DNA of 64,000 nt from Tomocerus qinae (lineage: Eukaryota > Arthropoda > Collembola > Entomobryomorpha > Tomoceridae). The notes under the pieces are model-generated. The model was not told the origin of the DNA. It saw only the letters and a list, made by a program, of their open reading frames with translations, and did not search any database. The stretch lies in assembly GCA_020055645.1 (NCBI GenBank), contig CM034549.1:13592430-13656429 (forward strand), read 5' to 3'. Positions 20,845-38,535 of the stretch are shown one piece after another. The position numbers were made by a program, and so were the translations under genes. Within the stretch, counting starts at the first letter, position 1; each line of letters begins with the position of its first letter.

Positions 20845-21720
20845 CATTATGATAGCCAACATTAATCAATTTTGATTTTCTGTTGATTTTCATACTCAAC
20901 ATTAATAAAATTTGATTTTCTGTTGCTTTTCATAGTCAACATGATTAAATTTTGATTTTCTGTTGATTTTCATAGTCAACAATTATCTATTTTGATTTTC
21001 TGTTGATTTTCATAGTCAACAATTATCTATTTTGATTTTCTGTTGATTTTCATAGTCAATAATTATCAATTATGATTTTGTGTTGATTTTCATTGTCAAT
21101 CTTAATCTATTTTGTGTTTCTGTTGATTTTCATACTCAACATTAATAAAATTTGACTTTCTGTTGCTTTTCATAGTCAACATGATTAAATTTTGATTTTC
21201 TGTTGATTTTCATAGTCAACAATTATCTATTTTGATTTTCTGTTCATTTTCATAGTCAACAATTATCTATTTTGATTTTCTGTTGATTTTCATAGTCAAT
21301 AATTATCAATTATGATTTTGTGTTGATTTTCATTGTCAATCTTAATCTATTTTGTGTTTCTGTTGATTTTCATAGTCAACAATTATTTACTTTGATTTTC
21401 TGTTGATTTTCATAGTCAACAATTATCTATTTTGGTTTTTTTGTTGATTTTAATAGTCAACAATTATCTATTTTGATTTTCTGCTGATTTTCATAGTCAA
21501 TAATTATCAATTTTGATTTTCTGTTGATTGTCATTGTCAATCTTAATCTATTTTGAGTTTCTGTTGAATTTCATAGTCAACAATTATCTATTTTGATTTT
21601 CTGTTGATTTTCATAGTCAACATTAATCTATTTTGATTTTCTGTTGATTTTCATTGTCAGGATTAATCTATTTTGAGTTTCTGTTGATTTTCATAGTCAA
21701 CGTTAATCTGCTTTGATTTT
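20845..21720. repeat. 40-bp minisatellite, about 22 units, in HINE copy C
   Basis: The unit is close to TTTTGATTTTCTGTTGATTT followed by TCATAGTCAACATTAATCAA. A six-unit (240-bp) block at about 20881-21120 is repeated almost exactly at 21121-21360, i.e. a higher-order repeat. Open frames across it are by-products of the unit. Confidence 0.9.
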
Positions 21721-21728
21721 CTATTGAC

Positions 21729-21955
21729 TTTGATGGTCAACATTCATACATTTTGACTTTGATACTCAATATTAACCAATAAATATGAAAATAAACCTGT
21801 TTCTATTATTAATAGAATAACTGTGTACACGGTCCCCTTCACTTTGATGGTCAACATTCATACATTTTGACTTTGATACTCAATATTAACCAATAAATAT
21901 GAAAATAAACCTGTTTCTATTATTAATATAATAACTGTGTACACGGTCCCCTTCA
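21729..21955. repeat. Direct duplication of about 114 bp
   Basis: The segment beginning TTTGATGGTCAACATTCATA and ending GTACACGGTCCCCTTCAC occurs twice in tandem (21729-21842, 21843-21955) with one visible difference (AATAGAA versus AATATAA). Confidence 0.9.
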
Positions 21956-21992
21956 CTCAGGCGAGCTTCTGTTACGGCTTGCCGTAGGTTTT

Positions 21993-22545
21993 AAAGTTAA
22001 TATTAACCGATTTTGATTTTCTTTTGATTTTAATACTCAATATTAGTCAATTATGATTTTCTGTTGATTTTCATAGTCAACATTAATCAATTTTGATTTT
22101 CTGTTAATTTTCATAGTCAACATTAATCATTTTTGATTTTCTGTTGATTTTCATAGTCAACATTAATCAACTTTGATTTTCTGTTAATTTTCATAGTCAG
22201 CATTAATCATTTTTGATTTTCTGTTGATTTTCATGGTCAACATTAATCAACTTTGATTTTCTGTTGATTTTCATAGTCAACATTAATCAACTTTGATTTT
22301 CTGTTGATTTCCATAGTCAACATTAATCAATTTTGATTTTCTGTTAATTTTCATAGTAACATTAATCAATTTTGATTTTCTGTTAATTTTCATAGTAACA
22401 TTAATCAATTTTGATTTTCTGTTAATTTTCATAGTAACATTAATCAATTTTGATTTTCTGTTGATTTTCATAGTCAACATTAATCAATTTTGATTTTCTG
22501 TTGATTTGCATAGTCAACATTAATCAATTTTGATGTTCTGTTGAT
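21993..22545. repeat. 40-bp minisatellite, tail of HINE copy B
   Basis: About 13-14 units of the same 40-bp repeat. Three consecutive 39-bp variants (one base lost, ATAGTAAC instead of ATAGTCAAC) near 22345-22460 show local unit duplication. Confidence 0.85.
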
Positions 22546-23211
22546 TTTTCAAATAATATAGCTTCGTTTCCTTATAATATCAATGTCTGAATTTTTAATA
22601 TGTCATAGCTACATATATAAAGACCCAATTCTGAAAGTTTGATCAAAATCCGTACGCTCGGTTTTGTGCTACGTTCGAGTACTTTTCGTCAACCAAAATG
22701 TGTACACGTTATTCTTTAATCAGGCGAGCTTCTGTTACGGCTTGCTGTAGGTTTATACTTTTATACACTAGATATAAAATTAATGACAACATGAATGAAT
22801 TTTCTTAGGTAATCAACATTCCAAAACTGACTAACAGTGAACAGTACTATAAACGCAAATATCCTTGCTACAATTTAGCAATCCATAGATCTAATACAGA
22901 ACAAACTACTATGTGTTTGTGGCATAAAATTGAGGGAAATAGAGGTGCGAGCGAAGTCTTTTCTTGCATTTTTAAATATTGCACAGAAAATTTCAATATT
23001 CTAGGATCAGACGAGACAAGAACTCTTATAGTATGTTCTGACCGCAGCAGCGGTCAGAACAATAATTTTGAAACAATATGCGGTTACCGAGTCTTAATTG
23101 CCCGTCGGTATTTCACAGAGGTATGATTATTTTGAAAATTTTGGCGAAAACTCAAATTGTTTAACAAAGATTATCTTTTTATTCTAGATTCAACAAAAGT
23201 TTTTATGTATC

Positions 23212-28185: not shown

Positions 28186-28364
28186 AAATAACCGGTTGAA
28201 GTAAGACAGTGGTGGCAGAGCAGGAGCAGGAGTAGGATCAGGATCAGAAGTAGGAGCAGGGAGCAGGAGCAGGAGCAGGGAGCAGGCAAAATGAGCAGGA
28301 GTAGGAGCAAGAGCAGATGAAAGAGCAGGGAGCAGAAGCAAAATAACTTTACTGTTAACCTCCC

Positions 28365-28740
28365 TCAATAACCTCCCTCAATAACCTCCCCTATTAACCT
28401 CCCCTATTAACCTCCCATATTAACCTCCCCTATTAACCTCACCGATTAACCTCCTCTATTCAGCACCCCTATATTTATCCCCTACTAACATCTCATAATA
28501 TATGGTTTTTAAGGGTTTTCCTTCCCTTTTCAATATTATAACGTGGTTTTTGAGGGTTTTCCTTCCCTTTTCAATATTGTAACGTGGTTTTTGAGGATTT
28601 TCCTTCCTTTTTCAATATTCTAATGTGGTTTTTAAGGATTTTCCTTCCCTTTTCAATATTTTAATATGGTTTTTAAGGGTTTTCCTTCCCTTTGCAATAC
28701 AATAACTTGGTTTTTGAGTGTTTCTTTCCCAGTGTTGTTT
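28365..28740. repeat. Left arrays of the Merlin-type element
   Basis: A run of CCTCCCCTATTAA units (28365-28460) is followed by about six 41-bp units beginning GGTTTTTAAGGGTTTTCCTT (28502-28740). Both have inverse counterparts at the right end (31775-32290). Confidence 0.9.
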
Positions 28741-28744
28741 TATG

Positions 28745-29248
28745 TCATGATTTAATCTGTTCTGTCCGATTAATGCATCTTTTGGTGTCTTTTAAGATTG
28801 TCCAATCTGGAGAATGTTTTATTACACATTTTGCAGTTAAAACTTTTTTTAACATGTACTTTTTGTATATGTCGTTATGTCGATAGTTTGCCATCGGATA
28901 TTTAAAAGTTTTATCAAATTTTGAGCAGTATTTATAACTATCCTTTATATTCAAGGACTGCATCGTGGTTTCTTCTTCCTCTGGAGGTGTTCCTGGAGAC
29001 GTTTCTTCGGGTGTTTCAGGGGTGCTACCTACAAGATTCAACCTTTCGTCTTCCAAAAACATAACAATCGCTTGGGCCGTAATTGTTTCACCGCTTTCTT
29101 CTTCACAAATAGGACAAATGAAGCGATTGTCCTCTGTATGAATAATGCAGCTATCATGTACATAATGTTCAAAACAAGAGTCAGAATTTATCCTTACAAC
29201 TGTGTAAAACATTGACAATTGGCATACCAGACACAAAGGCGGGGCCAT
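28745..29248 (-). CDS. RING-like plus C2H2 zinc-finger protein of the Merlin-type element
   Basis: This 167-codon minus-strand frame starts MAPPLCLVCQLSM. The N-terminal half has CLVC, CFEHYVHDSC and CPIC, a RING-H2-like spacing of zinc ligands (residues 6-50). An acidic Pro/Glu/Thr linker follows (TPETPEETSPGTPPEEEE), then a decayed C2H2 finger (YCSKFDKTFKYP, second Cys replaced by Phe). In the next frame, just past a run of seven A's, an intact last finger is readable (CKMCNKTFSRLDNLKRHQKM then H), so a single-base indel seems to have cut the protein. It transcribes toward the left end, mirroring the gene at 31253. DNA binding or ubiquitin-ligase activity would be inference. It shares its upstream array (29335-29480) with the transposase, as a divergent pair. 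Confidence 0.65.
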   Translation of the reverse strand: MAPPLCLVCQLSMFYTVVRINSDSCFEHYVHDSCIIHTEDNRFICPICEEESGETITAQAIVMFLEDERLNLVGSTPETPEETSPGTPPEEEETTMQSLNIKDSYKYCSKFDKTFKYPMANYRHNDIYKKYMLKKVLTAKCVIKHSPDWTILKDTKRCINRTEQIKS

Positions 29249-29334
29249 TTTTAAATGTAGCTAATGTAGATTTGAATGAGAATCTTCAAAAAAGCAATGC
29301 AGCAGAAAATTAATGCTTAGGGCTAACACAGGAG

Positions 29335-29480
29335 ATTAATATAGGAGGTTAATACGGGAGGTGAATACGGGAGGTTAATACGGGAGGTTAATACTGGAGG
29401 TTAATTCAGGAGGTTAATTCAGGAGGTTAATACTGGAGGTTAATTCAGGAGGTTAATTAATTTAGGAGGTTAGCTTTAGA
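29335..29480. repeat. GGAGGTTAAT array between divergent genes
   Basis: About nine units of roughly 15 bp (GGGAGGTTAATAC and GGAGGTTAATTCA variants) fill the gap between the divergent zinc-finger and transposase genes, where a shared promoter would be expected. Confidence 0.85.
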
Positions 29481-29592
29481 GGTTGATTCCGAAGAACATT
29501 GTTGGATATTATTTAACGTGTTATTAATACATTTATGATCGTTAACGGACTAAGTTGCAATAGCAGTAACCTAATTATCAAATATTTTAATC

Positions 29593-30603
29593 ATGCCTGA
29601 GTTAAATAGAGACGACGTTATTGCATTGTTTAATTCAGATGCTTTCGAAAGGCAATGGTTCCAAAAAGTGTGCGATAAGGATAGTGCATTCAGTTTTGCA
29701 CAGCATACAGGATTAATTAATTTAGCTATCCCCCCTCGATGTCAGTGCGGAAGAATAAAACGGTTAACGCAGAGAGCCGACAGAATAAATAGCGAAAGTA
29801 AAGGCTACCAGTGGGTGTGCTCATCTGAAATAGGAATTCCGAGATGCAGGATAAGAGTGTCTGTGCTTGACAATACGTTTTTCAATCACGCTAAGCTACA
29901 ATTCCGTGTCATTTTAGATCTCACCTTGCATTGGTTCTTGGGCACAAATGTAACGAAAGCTGCGGGACTAACTGGTGTGTCAAAAGAGGCAGCCATTGAC
30001 TGTTACAGCTATTGTCGACAAGTAAGCTTTAATGTCATAGAGAACCAAGACATTTGCGTAGGTGGTGAAGGCTTAACCGTAGAAATAGATGAGACTCACT
30101 TGTACACAAGAAACTTTCATAGGGGGAGACTCTTGGCTAGCGAGCAGTATTGGGTGTTTGGTGGAATCTGTAGGGAAACAAAAGAATGTTTTGCAACCCT
30201 TGTGCCAGACAGAAGCGGAGCTACACTATGGCCTATTATATATCGTAAAATTGCCCCTGGAACCACTATTATCAGTGATACTGCTCGAGTTTACCAAAAT
30301 TTGCACAGAGCCCCTTTATATTTTGAACACCATCGTGTAAACCATAGTCTAAACTTTGTTGACCCAGTAAATCCAGACATTCACACAAACACAGTAGAAC
30401 GACAATGGGGTTTGCTTAAAAAAGGAATAACTGGCTTTGGTGGTGAACTTTCAATGCAGCAATACATATTTGAGTGGATGTATAGAAGGCAGTTTACGGC
30501 TGTTCAAACGGACAGGGAAAGAAGAACGCTAGGAAAGCAGTTTAAAGTGTTTGTAGAACACATAGCCCAAGTGTTCCCCGGTCCTTATAAAACTGGAATA
30601 TAA
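29593..30603 (+). CDS. ISXO2/IS1595-like DDE transposase (Merlin superfamily)
   Basis: The frame is 336 residues and intact. A zinc-ribbon-like set lies near the front (C50-x-C52 in PPRCQCGRIKR, C76 and C85 in GYQWVCSSEIGIPRC). The catalytic core follows with D166 in VEIDETHLYTRNF, D229 in TIISDTARVY and E269 in HTNTVERQWGLLKKGI, the ISXO2-like pattern. It would cut and join the GGTTGAAG ends in the nucleus. The start codon follows the GGAGGTTAAT array by about 110 bases, and the stop is followed within 40 bases by a 41-bp array. All catalytic residues present suggest the protein could still be active. Confidence 0.9.
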   Translation: MPELNRDDVIALFNSDAFERQWFQKVCDKDSAFSFAQHTGLINLAIPPRCQCGRIKRLTQRADRINSESKGYQWVCSSEIGIPRCRIRVSVLDNTFFNHAKLQFRVILDLTLHWFLGTNVTKAAGLTGVSKEAAIDCYSYCRQVSFNVIENQDICVGGEGLTVEIDETHLYTRNFHRGRLLASEQYWVFGGICRETKECFATLVPDRSGATLWPIIYRKIAPGTTIISDTARVYQNLHRAPLYFEHHRVNHSLNFVDPVNPDIHTNTVERQWGLLKKGITGFGGELSMQQYIFEWMYRRQFTAVQTDRERRTLGKQFKVFVEHIAQVFPGPYKTGI

Positions 30604-30639
30604 TTGTCAACCTTCCATCAGCAATGGGAAGAAAAATCC

Positions 30640-30985
30640 TCAAAAACAAAGTTATTGTATTGCAAAGGGAAGGAAAATCCTTAAAAACCACTTTAAAATA
30701 TTGAAAAGGGAAGGAAAATCCTTAAAAACCACTTTAAAATATTGAAAAGGGAAGGAAAATCCTTAAAAACCACTTTAAAATATTGAAAAGGGAAGGAAAA
30801 TCCTTAAAAACCACGTTAAAATATTGAAAAGGGAAGGAAAATCCTTAAAAACCACGTTAAAATATTGAAAAGGGAAGGAAAATCCTTAAAAACCATATTG
30901 AAAAGGGAAGGAAAACCTTTAAAAACTACGTTAAAATATTTAAAAGTGAAGGAAAACACTCAAAAATCATGTTAAAGCATTTATT
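30640..30985. repeat. 41-bp array after the transposase gene
   Basis: About eight units of GGGAAGGAAAATCCTTAAAA plus ACCACTTTAAAATATTGAAA. The orientation relative to the upstream gene is the same as in the other two 41-bp arrays. Confidence 0.9.
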
Positions 30986-31190
30986 AACCTCCAGTATTAA
31001 CCTCCTGAATTAACTTCCAGTATTAACCTCCTGGATTAACCTCCAGTATTGACCTCCAGTATTAACCTCCTGAATTAACCTCCTGAATTAACCTCCAGTA
31101 TTAACCTCCTGAATTTAACCTCCAGTATTAACCTCCTGAATTAACCTCCAGTATTATCCTCCTGTATTAATCTCCTTGTATTGATCTTCT
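30986..31190. repeat. ATTAACCTCC array before the right accessory gene
   Basis: About 13 units of ATTAACCTCCTGA and ATTAACCTCCAGT type. Read in the direction of the accessory gene, this is the same orientation as the array upstream of the left accessory gene. Confidence 0.85.
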
Positions 31191-31252
31191 GTTCTGTCTC
31201 CTATATTGTAAATTTCAAATTAATTCTAAAATCTATAAAAGCTTTTCTAAAT

Positions 31253-31760
31253 ATGGAAGCTGATTTACAATTCATCCGGTTGGAGAAAGAAGAAATTCGG
31301 AAAGAAAGGGAAGACCTTAGAAAGGAGAGAGAGGACATAAGAATGGAAAGAGAAGCCCTGAGAAAAGAAAAAGAACTATTAAGGTACGAAAGAGACGAAA
31401 TCTACAAGCAATGGCAATGGGGAAATGAAGAAAATGAATATGTTGAGGAAAATTTACCAGAAGAGGGGTGTGAAACATATGACTGGGATGACAATTACAA
31501 CTACGATGACGTTGAAATGGCAGAGGGAAACAGCTCCCAAAGTATCCAGTCACCTGAGCGTCCAGACAATGTTCCTAACACCCCAGAAACGCCATTGACA
31601 TGCTCTACTTGTAAGAAGGTATTTACCCGACGTGACAACTTAAAGGCACACCAGGCAATACATTTAAGAACAGGGAAGAAATTCCATGCCTGCAATGCGA
31701 AAAAACTTTCGTAACATCACATAATCTTGGGCGTCATGTTCAACAGTTTCACGTTTAATA
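31253..31760 (+). CDS. Coiled-coil plus C2H2 zinc-finger protein of the Merlin-type element
   Basis: From ATG 31253 the protein opens with a highly charged heptad-like helix (KEREDLRKEREDIRMEREAL and on, residues 10-50). An acidic Asp/Glu/Tyr-rich stretch and a TPETP linker like that of the left gene follow, then a C2H2 finger, CSTCKKVFTRRDNLKAHQAI then H. The frame used ends at 31714. A second finger (CLQCEKTFVTSHNLGRHVQQ then FH) is readable in another frame to a stop at about 31760, so an indel near 31675 probably truncates it. The gene points outward to the right end and is the structural mirror of the left zinc-finger gene, but the N-terminal domain differs (coiled coil instead of RING). 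Confidence 0.65.
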
Positions 31761-31774
31761 ACCAACATTGAAAA

Positions 31775-32290
31775 GGGGTAAATATTGAAAAGGGAAGGAA
31801 ACCCTTAAAAACCACGTTAAAATATTGAAAAGGGAAGGAAATCCTTAAAAACCAGGTTAAAATATTGAATAGGGAAGGAAACCCTCAAAAACCACGTTAA
31901 AATGTTGAAAAGGGAAGGAAAACCCTCAAAAACCACGTTAAAATGTTGAAAAGGGAAGGAAAACCCTCAAAAACCATGTTAAAATGTTGAAAAGGGAAGG
32001 AAAACCCTCAAAAACCACGTTATAATATTGAAAAGGGAAGAAAAACCCTCAAAAACCACGTTACAATATTGAAAAGGGAAGGAAAACCCTTAAAAACCAC
32101 GTTAAAATATTGAAAAGGGAAGGAAAACTCTCAAAAACCATATATTATGAGATGTTCGTAGGGGATAAATATAGGGATGCTGAATAGGGGAGGTTAATCG
32201 GTGAGGTTAATAGGGGAGGTTAATATGGGAGGTTAATAGGGGAGGTTAATAGGGGAGGTTATTGAGGGAGGTTATTGAGGGAGGTTAACA
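31775..32290. repeat. Right arrays of the Merlin-type element
   Basis: About nine 41-bp units (31775-32150), then GGGGAGGTTAATA units (32180-32290), the inverse of the left arrays. They lead into the CTCCTGCTC-rich tip. Confidence 0.9.
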
Positions 32291-32483
32291 GTAAAGTTAT
32301 TTTGCTTCTGCTCCCTGCTCTTTCACCTGCTCTTGCTCCTACTCCTGCTCATTTTGCCTGCTCCCTGCTCCTGCTCCCTGCTCCTGCTCATTTTCCCTGC
32401 TCCTGCTCCCTGCTCCTACTCCTGATCCTGATCCTACTCCTGCTCCTGCTCTGCCACCACTGTCTTACTTCAACCAAATAACC

Positions 32484-33990: not shown

Positions 33991-34701
33991 TTGGTGAAAT
34001 TCGATTTTTTTGAGGATATTACTATTGGCGGCGCCCAATTTCGCTGTATTATCAAAATACTATATGAAATGGATATGTGCAAAAAATGTTACGGTGAACG
34101 TGGAAATCGACACAAGGTTACCTGCGTGAGATGCGGAAACTGGACTCATCGCACTTGTTTGGATATCTGCATTCAAAACTCTCAGTTTCGTCAATTTAGT
34201 GCTACGTTTATATGCTGTTCAGGGGATATCAATCAAGCAATTCAAGAAGTTCAAATATCTCAACACAATCAGTCATCATCATCGAATTCACATTTAAATA
34301 CGGAAGATTGTGCTCCTTTTAATAACTGTAGTAGTCTTACGGTAAACGAATCTATGTTAAGAGAAGCCTTTGATACCAGTAACCGCATCTACACACCAAG
34401 ATTAAGAAAAGGCTTAAAATTTATTCATATTAATGTAAATGGCATTAAGAGTAGAATCAATGAATTAAGAGATCTGCTGCTTAATGAAAATGGGGTAGCT
34501 GTATGTGGGGTTACAGAAAGTAAACTTTTTAGTCATGATTTAACTGGTTACTTCAATATAAGAGGATATTTTTGTTACAGAATAGATAGAGAAATTAATG
34601 CTGGAGGCGGGATGTTAATATACATTAATAATTTTTTCTCATTTCAAATTGTTGATATACCCAGCCCACTTATAAAAAATCAGTTTATTGAAATTAATTC
34701 T

Positions 34702-35915
34702 ATAATTGAGTTCGCGAGTTCTAAAAGTACACTTTTCAATAACAACTATTTTTTATTTTATCAACTGGCCAAATTATTTAAAAGTATACTTAGTAAACAC
34801 CCGAAAGTCTATTGGTAGATGTCCGACAATCAAGATATGGGTTAGTTTTTTACCCATCCATATCCCTTTGATACCGGCTATCGACTACTGATCCATTAGG
34901 CTATTAGGCCCTCTATTAAGCCCTATTTTCAGTGAGTTTAATTTTTAAAGTGATTTACAGTGCCAGTGCCACCCTATTTGCTTAGCTATAGTTAACAGGC
35001 GACATTAACGCCTTATTTCATAATGCGTTCTATTTTATCCGACCAAAATCATTTTTACCAGTCGTCTAATTGCCTAATAAATTGGACAGCGAATGTGTTT
35101 GATTTTTTAAAGATGCCACCAGACAAAGAATACTTTTCTCAGTCTACATTTCTCTATTTCCTTATTTTGACTATTTACATATTCTAGCCACCACTTCCCA
35201 GTAATTGTAACATGTCATACAGGCTGATTTAGATAGCTAAACGGTTGGTTACCGAACATGGACTAATCACCTATATTGCCTCCAGGAATAGTATTGGAAA
35301 AGGTGACATATATCTATCAAAGGTAATAAAATGTAATGTTCGACCCCGAATTGAATTTTTCCCAATGCAAAATCATTTTCTATCAATCATCCTATTTTCT
35401 TTTTCTCTGACCCAACCTAATAAAAATACAGTCAAAAAATTTTTGGTTGTTTAAATTTTATTAGGTTAGAGATCATAAAAGGCAAATAGTGGCCGGTTTA
35501 TATGAAATACTGCAATCAACCCATTACCAAAAATCAATCGCATTTGGCGTTGAAATATTCCGAGAAAAATCAAAATTAATTTCTTGGGTATTGTTTGAGT
35601 AGTCTCAGTACTTAGTAAGAAATTTTCCAATGACGGCATCAACTTTTAAACGTATTTTTGTGGTCAACCCTCGACAGAGTAGCTAAATTTTTGCGAAGAA
35701 TAGTTCTTCAACGACATTAAGTGGGATTGGGCTCATTTTACATAGAAACTAAATGTGGTTGTTAACAAAGCTAAGGAACGGAAAGTCTTTGTCGGCAATT
35801 GGTTGGGGACTGTCGGGTATTGCTCTTGGGTGACAATAGTGACACTTTATTGTCTCCATTAGAGATAGAGATTGTTACTGAAAAGTGTACTTTTAGAACT
35901 CTCAAACTCAATTAT
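34702..35915. mobile_element. Inverted-repeat element in the LINE, TTCT duplication
   Basis: The ends are ATAATTGAGTTCGCGAGTTC and its inverse (GAACTCTCAAACTCAATTAT) with about 45 bp of arm similarity. TTCT is duplicated at 34698-34701 and 35916-35919. Dropping the element restores the LINE frame between INS and RKGMPKIL. No transposase inside. Confidence 0.75.
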
Positions 35916-37765
35916 TTCTAGGAAAGGAATGCCAAAAATACTTGTTACTACGGTGTACAATACACCTGCTACCAAAGCTAACAAAAATCATGATTCCTAT
36001 TTTTTAGAGTCCCTTAGGAATGTTTTAAGTTATCTACAGTGTTATAAAGTAGAACAAATCTGTTTTGGTGATTTCAATATTGATGCCCTCGAGCGTTCAA
36101 GATTTAGAACTGAGCTTTATAATTTGGCTTCGGAATTTGATTTAAAGCAAATTATTAGTAAACCAACAAGAGTTACTGCCACTTCCAGCTCACTGCTGGA
36201 CCATATATACATCAACAGTAGGTTATACACAGAAACTGGTCAATTTTCGTTTGGTGGCTCAGACCATGATTTGACATATGTTGTAAGAAAAGAAAAAAGA
36301 GTCACTAATACTGGGATATTGGTTGAGAGTAGAAATTATTCAAATATAAATTGGGAAAATGTTGTCAATGATTTCAAAGGCATAGATTTTAGTTACCTAG
36401 TTAAGGCTGAAGATTTGAATCATAGTTTAGACAAGTTTGAAAAGGACACGTTATCTATGTTAGACTCTCACGCTCCCATCACTAGGAAGCTGTGCAAACA
36501 TAGAAATACACCATGGTACAGTAATGAAATAGCTAATAATTGTAAGATTAGAGATAAGTTAAAATGTATAGCTAAAAAATCTAAATGTAAAAACGATTGG
36601 TCAGCCTACAAAAAATCGAGAGGGACTGTTAAAAACTTATTATTTGCGGCCAAGCGAAAATACTATAAAAAAAGGTTTGAAAATTTCGAATCTAGTAATG
36701 TGTGGAATTTAGTAGACGACATTACTGGTTTCAGAGATAAGAGTTCAGTGCCAATTTTAAAATTATTAGATGATAGTGGAAAAGTAGTTGAGGAAGATGT
36801 AGATATTTGTGAAGCTCTTGCTGAAGTCTTTATTGTCAAAAAGGACGGTACTTATGATGATTGTGTAATGGAGGAAAAAATTAATTCATATTGTACTAAT
36901 TTTGTAATGGATTGTAATGACGATAGTAATATTAGTGAGGTTTCTGAGCTGGAAATTGTTAAGGCAATCAAGACTGTTGACAAAGGTTGAGGATCTAAAC
37001 AAAATGTACCTAAAAGAGTGTTTAAGGAAATTTTTGATGTAATTGCGGTCCCGCTGGCAGTCTTATTTACTTGTATTTTTGAGTGTAGTTTAATACCAAA
37101 CCAATTTAAATGTGCAAATGTATTTGCCTTGTACAAAGTCAAGGGTCCCAGATTGGGAGCAAGGAGCTACAGGTCAATTGCTGTAGTAACGTTCTTATGC
37201 AAGGTGTTTGAAAAGGTAATTTTTTCTAGATTGACCGACATGGTAGAACCAGATTTTGATACAAATCAGTTTGGGTTCAGAAAAAATAGGGGATGCGAAA
37301 ATGCAATATTGAAACTTACGCAAAGTATCCATGACAGTATAAATGGTACAAATGGAAGGGTAGTGGCTGTTTTTATAGATTTGAAGACTGCGTTTTATAG
37401 TGTTCAGCACGATTTGTTAATTTCTAAGTTGGTAGAGCAATTTAAAGTACAGCCTTATATGGTAAAATTGTTAAAAAACTATCTAAGCGGCAGAAAAGTG
37501 AGATTAAAAAATCGTGATTTTTATTCTAATGAATATGACATTAATACAGGAACAGGAGCTGGGTCATCGTTAGGACCTCTGCTCTTTAGTATTTTTATAA
37601 ATGACGTGGGTAATGTTTTCGATATTGATTATGCACTTTATGCCGATGATCTAGTGTGCTGGGTTTACAATGTTAAGGTGATGGTATACAGTTAAAAAGT
37701 CCAGATTGTTTATGCCACGAATGGGGATGTTGCTATACGTATCAGTATGAATAAGATCTTTGTAA

Positions 37766-38039: not shown

Positions 38040-38535
38040 GCTTGACTCTTGACTAACTTATTCCTAAAAGGTGTAGCATGAGTGGGAGACTTCCAAATTA
38101 TATTCTTAAAAGGTGTAGCATAAGTGGGAGTCTTCCAACTCATATTTCTAAATTGTGTAGCATGGGTGGGAGACTTCCAACTCATATTCCTAAATTGTGT
38201 AGCATGGATGGGAGACTTCCAACTCATGTTCCTAAATTGTGTAGCATGGGTGGGAGATTTCCAACTCATATTCCTAAATTGTGTAGCATGGGTGGGAGAC
38301 TTCCAACTCATATTCCTAAATTGTGTAGCATGGATGGGAGACTTCCAACTCATATTCCTAAATTGTGTAGCATGGGTGGGAGATTTCCAACTCATATTCC
38401 TAAATTGTGTAGCATGGGTGGGAGACTTCCAAATCACATTCCTAAAAGGTGTAGCATAAGTGGGAGATTTCCAACTCATATTCTTAAATTGTGTAGCATG
38501 GGTGTGGAATTTCAATCCAAATTTCTAAACTTAGT
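38040..38535. repeat. 42-bp minisatellite, about 11 units
   Basis: The unit is TGGGAGACTTCCAACTCATA plus TTCCTAAATTGTGTAGCATG. Because 42 is a multiple of three and the unit lacks stops, several frames stay open on both strands (e.g. GGRLPTHIPKLCSM repeated). I treat these as by-products, not genes. Confidence 0.9.

Follow-up and report, generated by a model that had tools for sequence, protein, structure and literature searches.

Why would a Merlin-type DNA transposon carry two zinc-finger genes beside its transposase? The question is raised by E1, an element at positions 28194-32475 of a 64,000-nucleotide stretch of the Tomocerus qinae genome (assembly GCA_020055645.1, contig CM034549.1, positions 13,592,430 to 13,656,429 of the forward strand). 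We call this whole stretch the window and give positions in it unless another contig is named. The ends of E1, and those of a diverged relative, E2, are filled with tandem repeats, and in both elements the fingers of an outward-pointing gene are predicted to read the repeats of the element that encodes them. Whether E1 is a Merlin cut-and-paste transposon encoding its own DNA-binding proteins aimed at its own repeats appears to us evenly balanced; this reading leans on the two protein/array pairs and on the coiled-coil/finger gene that points outward in both elements.

Structure of E1

E1 is flanked on both sides by AAATAACC (8 of 8 positions identical), and its inverted arms match at 89% (28194-28305 with 32364-32475) and 94% (28254-28723 with 31920-32389), the array-filled ends being about 0.5 kb long. 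The central open reading frame (ORF; 29593-30603) encodes an intact protein of 336 amino acids (aa), which matched DDE_Tnp_IS1595 in a Pfam profile search (PF12762; E 2.2e-17, 63.9 bits against a cut-off of 27) and has D/D/E motifs beginning at residues 164, 227, and 266. Among its 63 homologues, the closest with an organism name are transposases from the springtail Orchesella cincta. A 39-row tree joins the O. cincta sequences with several unnamed ones, E1, E2, and a third element (E3) in one group (99/99), which places E1 among eukaryotic Merlin transposases. The terminal inverted repeat (TIR) begins with GG at both ends of E1, E2, and the non-autonomous elements L010-L017 and L023; the exception is one degenerate end of L021, which begins with TG. 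A single transposase gene, a usual though non-defining Merlin trait, is not what these elements have: there are two accessory genes in E1 and one in E2. P0014, annotated as an IS1595 transposase from a metagenome bin assigned to Bacteroidota, shares 49% identity with the E1 transposase. It may be an animal sequence that was binned with bacterial DNA.

The transposase is flanked by two outward-pointing genes, each with the sequence TPETP. The N-terminus of the left protein fits the RING-H2 spacing C-x2-C-x14-C-x2-H-x2-H-x2-C-x10-C-x2-C (C3H2C3), and it is the sole match to this pattern among the 338 stop-to-stop frames of at least 50 aa in the window. The Pfam match to zf-RING_2 was weak (E 0.058, 14.1 bits, below the cut-off of 27.3), and an AlphaFold model run without an alignment had a mean pLDDT of 42.5, too poor for fold comparison. 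TPETP is followed by a finger that is degenerate by eye and then by a good C2H2 finger in another frame. The right gene encodes a charged coiled-coil-like region, TPETP, and one C2H2 finger, after which the frame shifts and the last finger is read in a different one; the right protein matched zf-C2H2 with an E value of 3.2e-06 (27.7 bits against a cut-off of 25.2). Three strict C2H2 motifs were found in the six frames of the 64-kb window, all within E1. DNA matches between the bodies of the two genes are no longer than 11 bases.

A first-pass annotation of this locus is thus borne out in its exact 8-bp duplications, matched ends, intact ISXO2-type transposase at the centre, and outward gene with a TPETP linker on each side, and the Pfam search that it proposed put DDE_Tnp_IS1595 and, on the right protein, zf-C2H2 above the cut-off, RING_2 on the left protein being weak. 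It also gave both proteins a charged N-terminal module, to be corrected for the left protein, which starts with the RING-H2 pattern, and C-terminal C2H2 fingers, which are there, but with the last finger of each out of frame and the first of the left gene degenerate.

Absent from that description were three kinds of tandem array (6-, 13-, and 41-mers) laid out in order through E1. The (GAGCAG)n 6-mer arrays are found only at the two ends, in opposite polarity. Each end has a 13-mer array, and two more occupy the interval from the left gene to the transposase and the DNA immediately upstream of the right gene. Every one of the three genes has a 41-mer array on its 3' side, and the orientation of the array with respect to the gene is constant. 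Because of this ordered layout, E1 reads as cassettes. The features are as follows.

28186..28193, no strand: left target-site duplication AAATAACC, identical to 32476-32483
28194..28216, plus strand: left outer TIR GGTTGAAGTAAGACAGTGGTGGC, identical or near-identical in L010-L017
28218..28340, plus strand: terminal 6-mer array (GAGCAG)n, predicted site of the right protein (repeat scan, site counts)
28355..28472, no strand: 13-mer array at the left end, holding GAGGTTA on the minus strand (repeat scan)
28503..28730, minus strand: 41-mer array, 3' side of the left gene (repeat scan)
28745..29248, minus strand: left accessory gene with RING-H2-like N-terminus, TPETP, degenerate C2H2 finger 1, and a frameshift before the last finger (frame list, Pfam, pattern match)
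28773..28835, minus strand: last C2H2 finger of the left gene, other frame, helix RLDNLKR, predicted to read GAG (motif scan)
29324..29457, no strand: 13-mer array between the left gene and the transposase, upstream of both (repeat scan)
29593..30603, plus strand: Merlin/IS1595-type DDE transposase, 336 aa, intact (PF12762 E 2.2e-17; 63 homologues; tree)
30626..30976, plus strand: 41-mer array, 3' side of the transposase (repeat scan)
30983..31182, no strand: 13-mer array upstream of the right gene (repeat scan)
31253..31714, plus strand: right accessory gene with charged coiled-coil-like N-terminus, TPETP, and a frameshift after finger 1 (zf-C2H2 E 3.2e-06)
31601-31663, plus strand: C2H2 finger 1 of the right gene, helix RRDNLKA (motif scan)
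31687..31752, plus strand: last C2H2 finger of the right gene, other frame, helix TSHNLGR (motif scan)
31780..32140, plus strand: 41-mer array, 3' side of the right gene (repeat scan)
32183..32288, no strand: 13-mer array at the right end (repeat scan)
32303..32451, minus strand: terminal 6-mer array (CTGCTC)n, which is (GAGCAG)n on the minus strand (repeat scan, site counts)
32453..32475, minus strand: right outer TIR (end match; L010-L017)
32476..32483, no strand: right target-site duplication AAATAACC, identical to 28186-28193

Predicted match between fingers and terminal arrays

The diverged relative E2 (C1:56767804-56773932) is flanked by the duplication TGACTATT, and its inverted ends match at 98.4% over 1,005 bases. 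E2 has 70-mer arrays and 6-mer arrays, the latter (GAGGTG)n as opposed to the (GAGCAG)n of E1. The E2 transposase is split over two frames, the pieces being 54% and, in the C-terminal part, 65% identical to that of E1. One gene points outward; it encodes a coiled-coil-like N-terminus and three C2H2 fingers (Pfam E 1.9e-15, 56.7 bits, three stretches). The N-terminus of the E1 right protein matches that of the E2 protein in BLASTP (E 1e-4), but since both are low-complexity coiled coils, we did not accept this match as proof of homology. The RING-H2 pattern was not found in the six frames of E2, nor did the E1 left protein have a match there.

A passage of PMC3919609 uses RSDNLRA as an (a/c)AG finger and describes TKHNLVR as commonly enriched in GAG selection, and a table in PMC3607563 lists RSDNLAR for GAG and RSDALTR for GTG. 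The two fingers of the E1 right protein, RRDNLKA (like RSDNLRA) and TSHNLGR (like TKHNLVR), are thus predicted to read GAG[A/C]AG, and the E2 fingers RLDTLER (compare RSDALTR) and RIDNLRR (compare RSDNLAR) to read GTGGAG. GAG[AC]AG occurs 25 times in the 272 bp of the E1 end arrays, as opposed to 35 times in the remaining 59.7 kb of the window. GTGGAG occurs 25 times in the E2 end arrays, not once in 5.4 kb of E2 flanks, and 8 times in the window outside E1. When the predictions are swapped, the E1 site is found 0 times in the E2 arrays and the E2 site 0 times in the E1 arrays. Of 384 comparable predictions that share its fixed G positions, three reach the count observed for E1; for E2, 2 of 16 do so when all four G positions are kept and 2 of 256 when only the outer pair is. 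A simpler code, which we applied first, gave the same E2 site and a looser E1 site, GANNAG[GT]. The left protein is more weakly predicted to read GAG, which occurs about once per unit of the 13-mer arrays. The earlier guess that the accessory proteins bind the arrays or the ends has thereby gained specific support from both elements, in the form of a prediction.

The third element, E3, whose transposase is 53% identical, is interrupted by another insertion; no TIR of this type was found there. A C2H2-like frame about 3.7 kb from E3 (L047), with Pfam finger matches below the cut-off, was considered as a gene of that element and was not counted. Among the other Merlin lineages of the genome, those whose frames of at least 85 aa were inspected within 1.5-kb flanks had no finger gene beside the transposase.

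Copies of E1 in the genome

We searched the genome (334 Mb, 115 contigs; copy counts are lower bounds) with E1 and found at least one other large copy, copy 2 (C4:24986079-24989436, L009), and short copies. Copy 2 lacks its left end, the break lying inside the RING gene; its transposase frame is interrupted by a stop, and the right gene is deleted across the fingers. What is left of the accessory genes, the start of the left one and most of the right one, lies at the same places as in E1; array copy numbers differ between E1 and copy 2. Eight short copies (L010-L017) have E1 ends but neither a RING nor a C2H2 motif, and none of these loci was matched in the transposase search. Their longest open frame is 82 aa, except for one of 161 aa in L011, which has a nested insertion. 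The insertion (L011, about 1810-2870) has its own inverted ends, judged by eye, and encodes a 147-aa frame with a C-x-C...C-x-H-like pattern, which we take to be SWIM-like.

The first-pass annotation had asked whether further copies keep both accessory frames: copy 2 keeps remains of both, but the eight short copies keep neither. Copies that share the ends and lack the accessory genes, which that annotation had set against its own proposal, do exist, but they lack the transposase as well and are therefore ordinary non-autonomous derivatives. Exact 8-bp duplications flank 10 of the 11 elements tested (E1, E2, L010-L017, and L023); in L016, 4 of 8 positions agree. Allowing up to 3 mismatches, there are 20 E1-type ends, consisting of nine pairs, the single end of copy 2, and one further end. 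The short copies retain the arrays of their own subfamily, with 26-32 GAG[AC]AG sites in each of L010-L017 and 29 GTGGAG sites in L023.

Two more GAG-rich array types lie beside the same or a similar TIR, one GGAGAGGAAG-like (L065, 1243-1523) and one GGTGAGGAGG-like (L081, 1262-2230). Neither locus showed a C2H2 motif or, among frames of at least 90 aa, a transposase. Going by them, the family seems to diversify its arrays. A TIR pair 4 kb apart (L082) was rejected as a further element: its flanking 8-mers are unequal, and it has no accessory frame among frames of at least 80 aa.

Weighing of the explanations

Several observations, the array-less elements described below among them, weigh against binding of the arrays by the element's own proteins. 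The idea came after the arrays had been seen, so the statistics are descriptive only, and only two families were compared. By the stricter null, the E2 result is not unusual. The looser E1 site is also present in the E2 end arrays (11 and 9 sites), and the clean swap is therefore limited to the sharper one. The predicted E1 site combines fingers from two different frames of the E1 copy, the likeness of RLDTLER to RSDALTR comes down to a small residue in position 3, the zinc-finger code can mispredict, and the compared arrays are all rich in G and A. Both E1 accessory ORFs are frameshifted ahead of the last C2H2 finger (28773-28835 and 31687-31752); since the last finger of each sits in another frame, these genes are recognisable yet broken in the E1 copy. 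A search of 5.8 billion proteins, which reaches only proteins with shared short exact words, gave no homologue of either accessory protein at E 0.001 (97 and 10 candidates). In the comparison of E1 with copy 2, the ratio was 0.58 for the right gene ahead of the fingers (3 synonymous and 8 nonsynonymous changes), and the 35 codons of the left gene had 0 synonymous and 4 nonsynonymous changes, one of which loses a RING cysteine in copy 2; for the transposase, the ratio was 0.36 (9 synonymous, 12 nonsynonymous). The purifying selection on the accessory frames that the first-pass annotation proposed to look for thus left no signal here, although the comparison is weak either way because copy 2 is dead.

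The accessory frames might instead be host fragments or by-products, the arrays satellite growth, and the match a coincidence aided by G/A-rich repeats. The broken frames of E1, the deletion across the finger in copy 2, a frameshift in the E2 accessory gene, the missing selection signal, and the 2 of 16 obtained for E2 all fit this account, and tandem repeats within Merlin elements are already known from passages of the Merlin survey (PMC8101967). It accounts less well for the outward coiled-coil/C2H2 gene layout, common to E1 and E2 despite transposase pieces only 54% and 65% identical, or for the E1 match (3 of 384) and the absence of sites when the sharper predictions are swapped. Moreover, a genome search with the left protein and the N-terminal part of the E2 protein gave matches only in the elements themselves, the left gene being found only in E1 and copy 2. 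This lack of another genomic source speaks against recent capture of host exons, an origin that had been raised as a counter-explanation, for these two sequences. Coincidence of this kind is still a substantial explanation, even if we doubt it more than we credit it.

Alternatively, the array-binding proteins might pair and shape the ends, the arrays being cis elements of transposition. The 6-mer arrays lie at the extreme ends in opposite polarity and are retained in 8 of 8 E1-type short copies and in the E2-type L023, and there is a precedent in Galileo, whose TIR tandem repeats hold multiple binding sites according to PMC3688188. However, not all elements with these ends have arrays. A one-letter variant of the TIR pattern, with up to 2 mismatches, matched 885 times genome-wide (0 for a reversed-pattern control). 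We fetched the ends in the first 30 rows of this list, which are not a random sample and include some that are the two ends of one element: 15 had arrays, another 2 had short ones, and in 13 the first 120 bp contained GAG no more than twice. Among the array-less short elements with the same outer TIR (L049-L056, L063, L067, L073, L077, and L078), 7 could be seen from end to end; they measure about 136-167 bp, and exact 8-bp duplications flank 3 of them. Thus, the arrays are not strictly required for transposition, barring the action of another transposase. A role in end pairing and shaping seems unlikely to us, and our estimates for it and for an element aiming DNA-binding proteins at its own repeats overlap, since both include array binding.

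A target outside the element is improbable. The accessory proteins might act on the host, with the RING/zinc-finger protein, for example, attacking a silencing factor, as the RING-H2-like spacing of the left gene would allow. However, the predicted DNA sites lie inside the element itself, the RING match is weak by Pfam, the pattern is not in E2, and the left gene is confined to E1 and copy 2.

If the element does aim its proteins at its own repeats, the parts could work as follows. The right coiled-coil/C2H2 protein would read GAG[A/C]AG in the terminal 6-mer arrays of E1, as predicted from published helices, and its E2 counterpart would read GTGGAG in the different terminal arrays of E2. The left RING/C2H2 protein is more weakly predicted to read GAG in the 13-mer arrays upstream of all three genes and at both ends. 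The outer 23-bp ends would be recognised and cut by the transposase alone, and the coiled-coil protein might multimerise on the arrays. The most likely effect would be to keep the element expressed or accessible, through regulation or anti-silencing, with end pairing as a second possibility; we prefer the former because array-less relatives moved. The RING-like module may recruit ubiquitin-type modification to the same DNA, and protein and array would change together at the birth of a new subfamily.

A broader proposal is more tentative and falls somewhat short of an even prospect: that in an animal Merlin lineage, separate element-encoded zinc-finger proteins co-evolve with terminal arrays, new subfamilies arising as helices and repeat unit change together, while the RING/zinc-finger protein serves the promoter arrays, so that E1 would form a regulon complete in itself, built of three cassettes (13-mer array, gene, 41-mer array). 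If the match is real, the C2H2 code would let the protein-target co-evolution of an element be read from sequence. It would also mean that separate DNA-binding genes have been added to a superfamily usually described with a transposase alone, giving an animal counterpart of the self-targeting transposon proteins of plants and a natural supply of zinc fingers matched to arrays.

Other features of the window

No Rfam families and no tRNAs were found in the window, and a comparison with viral contigs gave no match. A 40-bp satellite-like array (ATAGTCAACATTAATCAATTTTGATTTTCTGTTGATTTTC) occupies 20852-22548; similar sequence is seen by eye beside copy 2 (L009, 2900-3160) and inside the non-autonomous L023 (840-1100). 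Frames at 33991-37695 resemble those of a non-LTR retroelement, being endonuclease- and reverse-transcriptase-like by eye, and 38059-38504 holds a 42-bp tandem array of 10.6 units, open on both strands.

Comparison with known systems

Passages of the Merlin survey (PMC8101967) describe 8-bp duplications and TIRs that begin with GG; some families contain tandem repeats, and some copies have a C-terminal ZZ finger. E1 likewise has a DDE_Tnp_IS1595 transposase, 8-bp duplications, GG TIRs, and tandem repeats. It differs from Merlin/IS1595 (IS1016-like) elements in its two outward accessory genes and its array-filled ends of about 0.5 kb, and E2 differs in its one accessory gene and inverted ends of about 1 kb. 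No Merlin element with separate accessory genes was found among titles, abstract openings, and passages of the Merlin survey, a scope outside which subscription papers and Repbase entries lie; titles and abstract openings on transposons with RING or C2H2 accessory proteins gave none either. The predicted match of fingers to the element's own arrays in E1 and E2 is new here.

VANDAL elements are plant MULEs. According to passages of PMC5735166, the targets of the Arabidopsis VANC proteins often form variable tandem repeats in the noncoding DNA of the VANDAL element itself, anti-silencing has been shown by experiment, and VANC proteins and their targets differ among related elements; the domains named there are DUF1985 and DUF287, not C2H2. 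The likeness lies in an element-encoded protein with targets among the tandem repeats of its own element, which in E1 and E2 is predicted only. 

In Galileo, of the P superfamily, PMC3688188 describes long inverted ends full of tandem repeats that hold many THAP binding sites, and in KolobokP, PMC9587614 describes a DNA transposon with an added His-Me nuclease gene and unusual long repeated ends. The DNA-binding domain of Galileo lies within the transposase, whereas E1 and E2 use a separate gene; in KolobokP, the accessory gene is a nuclease, and the long repeats are direct rather than inverted. TNPA of En/Spm and MURB of MuDR are second element-encoded proteins, and maize TNPA acts at subterminal repeats. 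Both belong to other superfamilies and, unlike E1 and E2, are not known to have C2H2 fingers or tandem 6-mer arrays. On our best reading, E1 and E2 would encode proteins that bind the terminal and promoter arrays of their own element, much as Arabidopsis VANC or En/Spm TNPA do, on a Merlin chassis.

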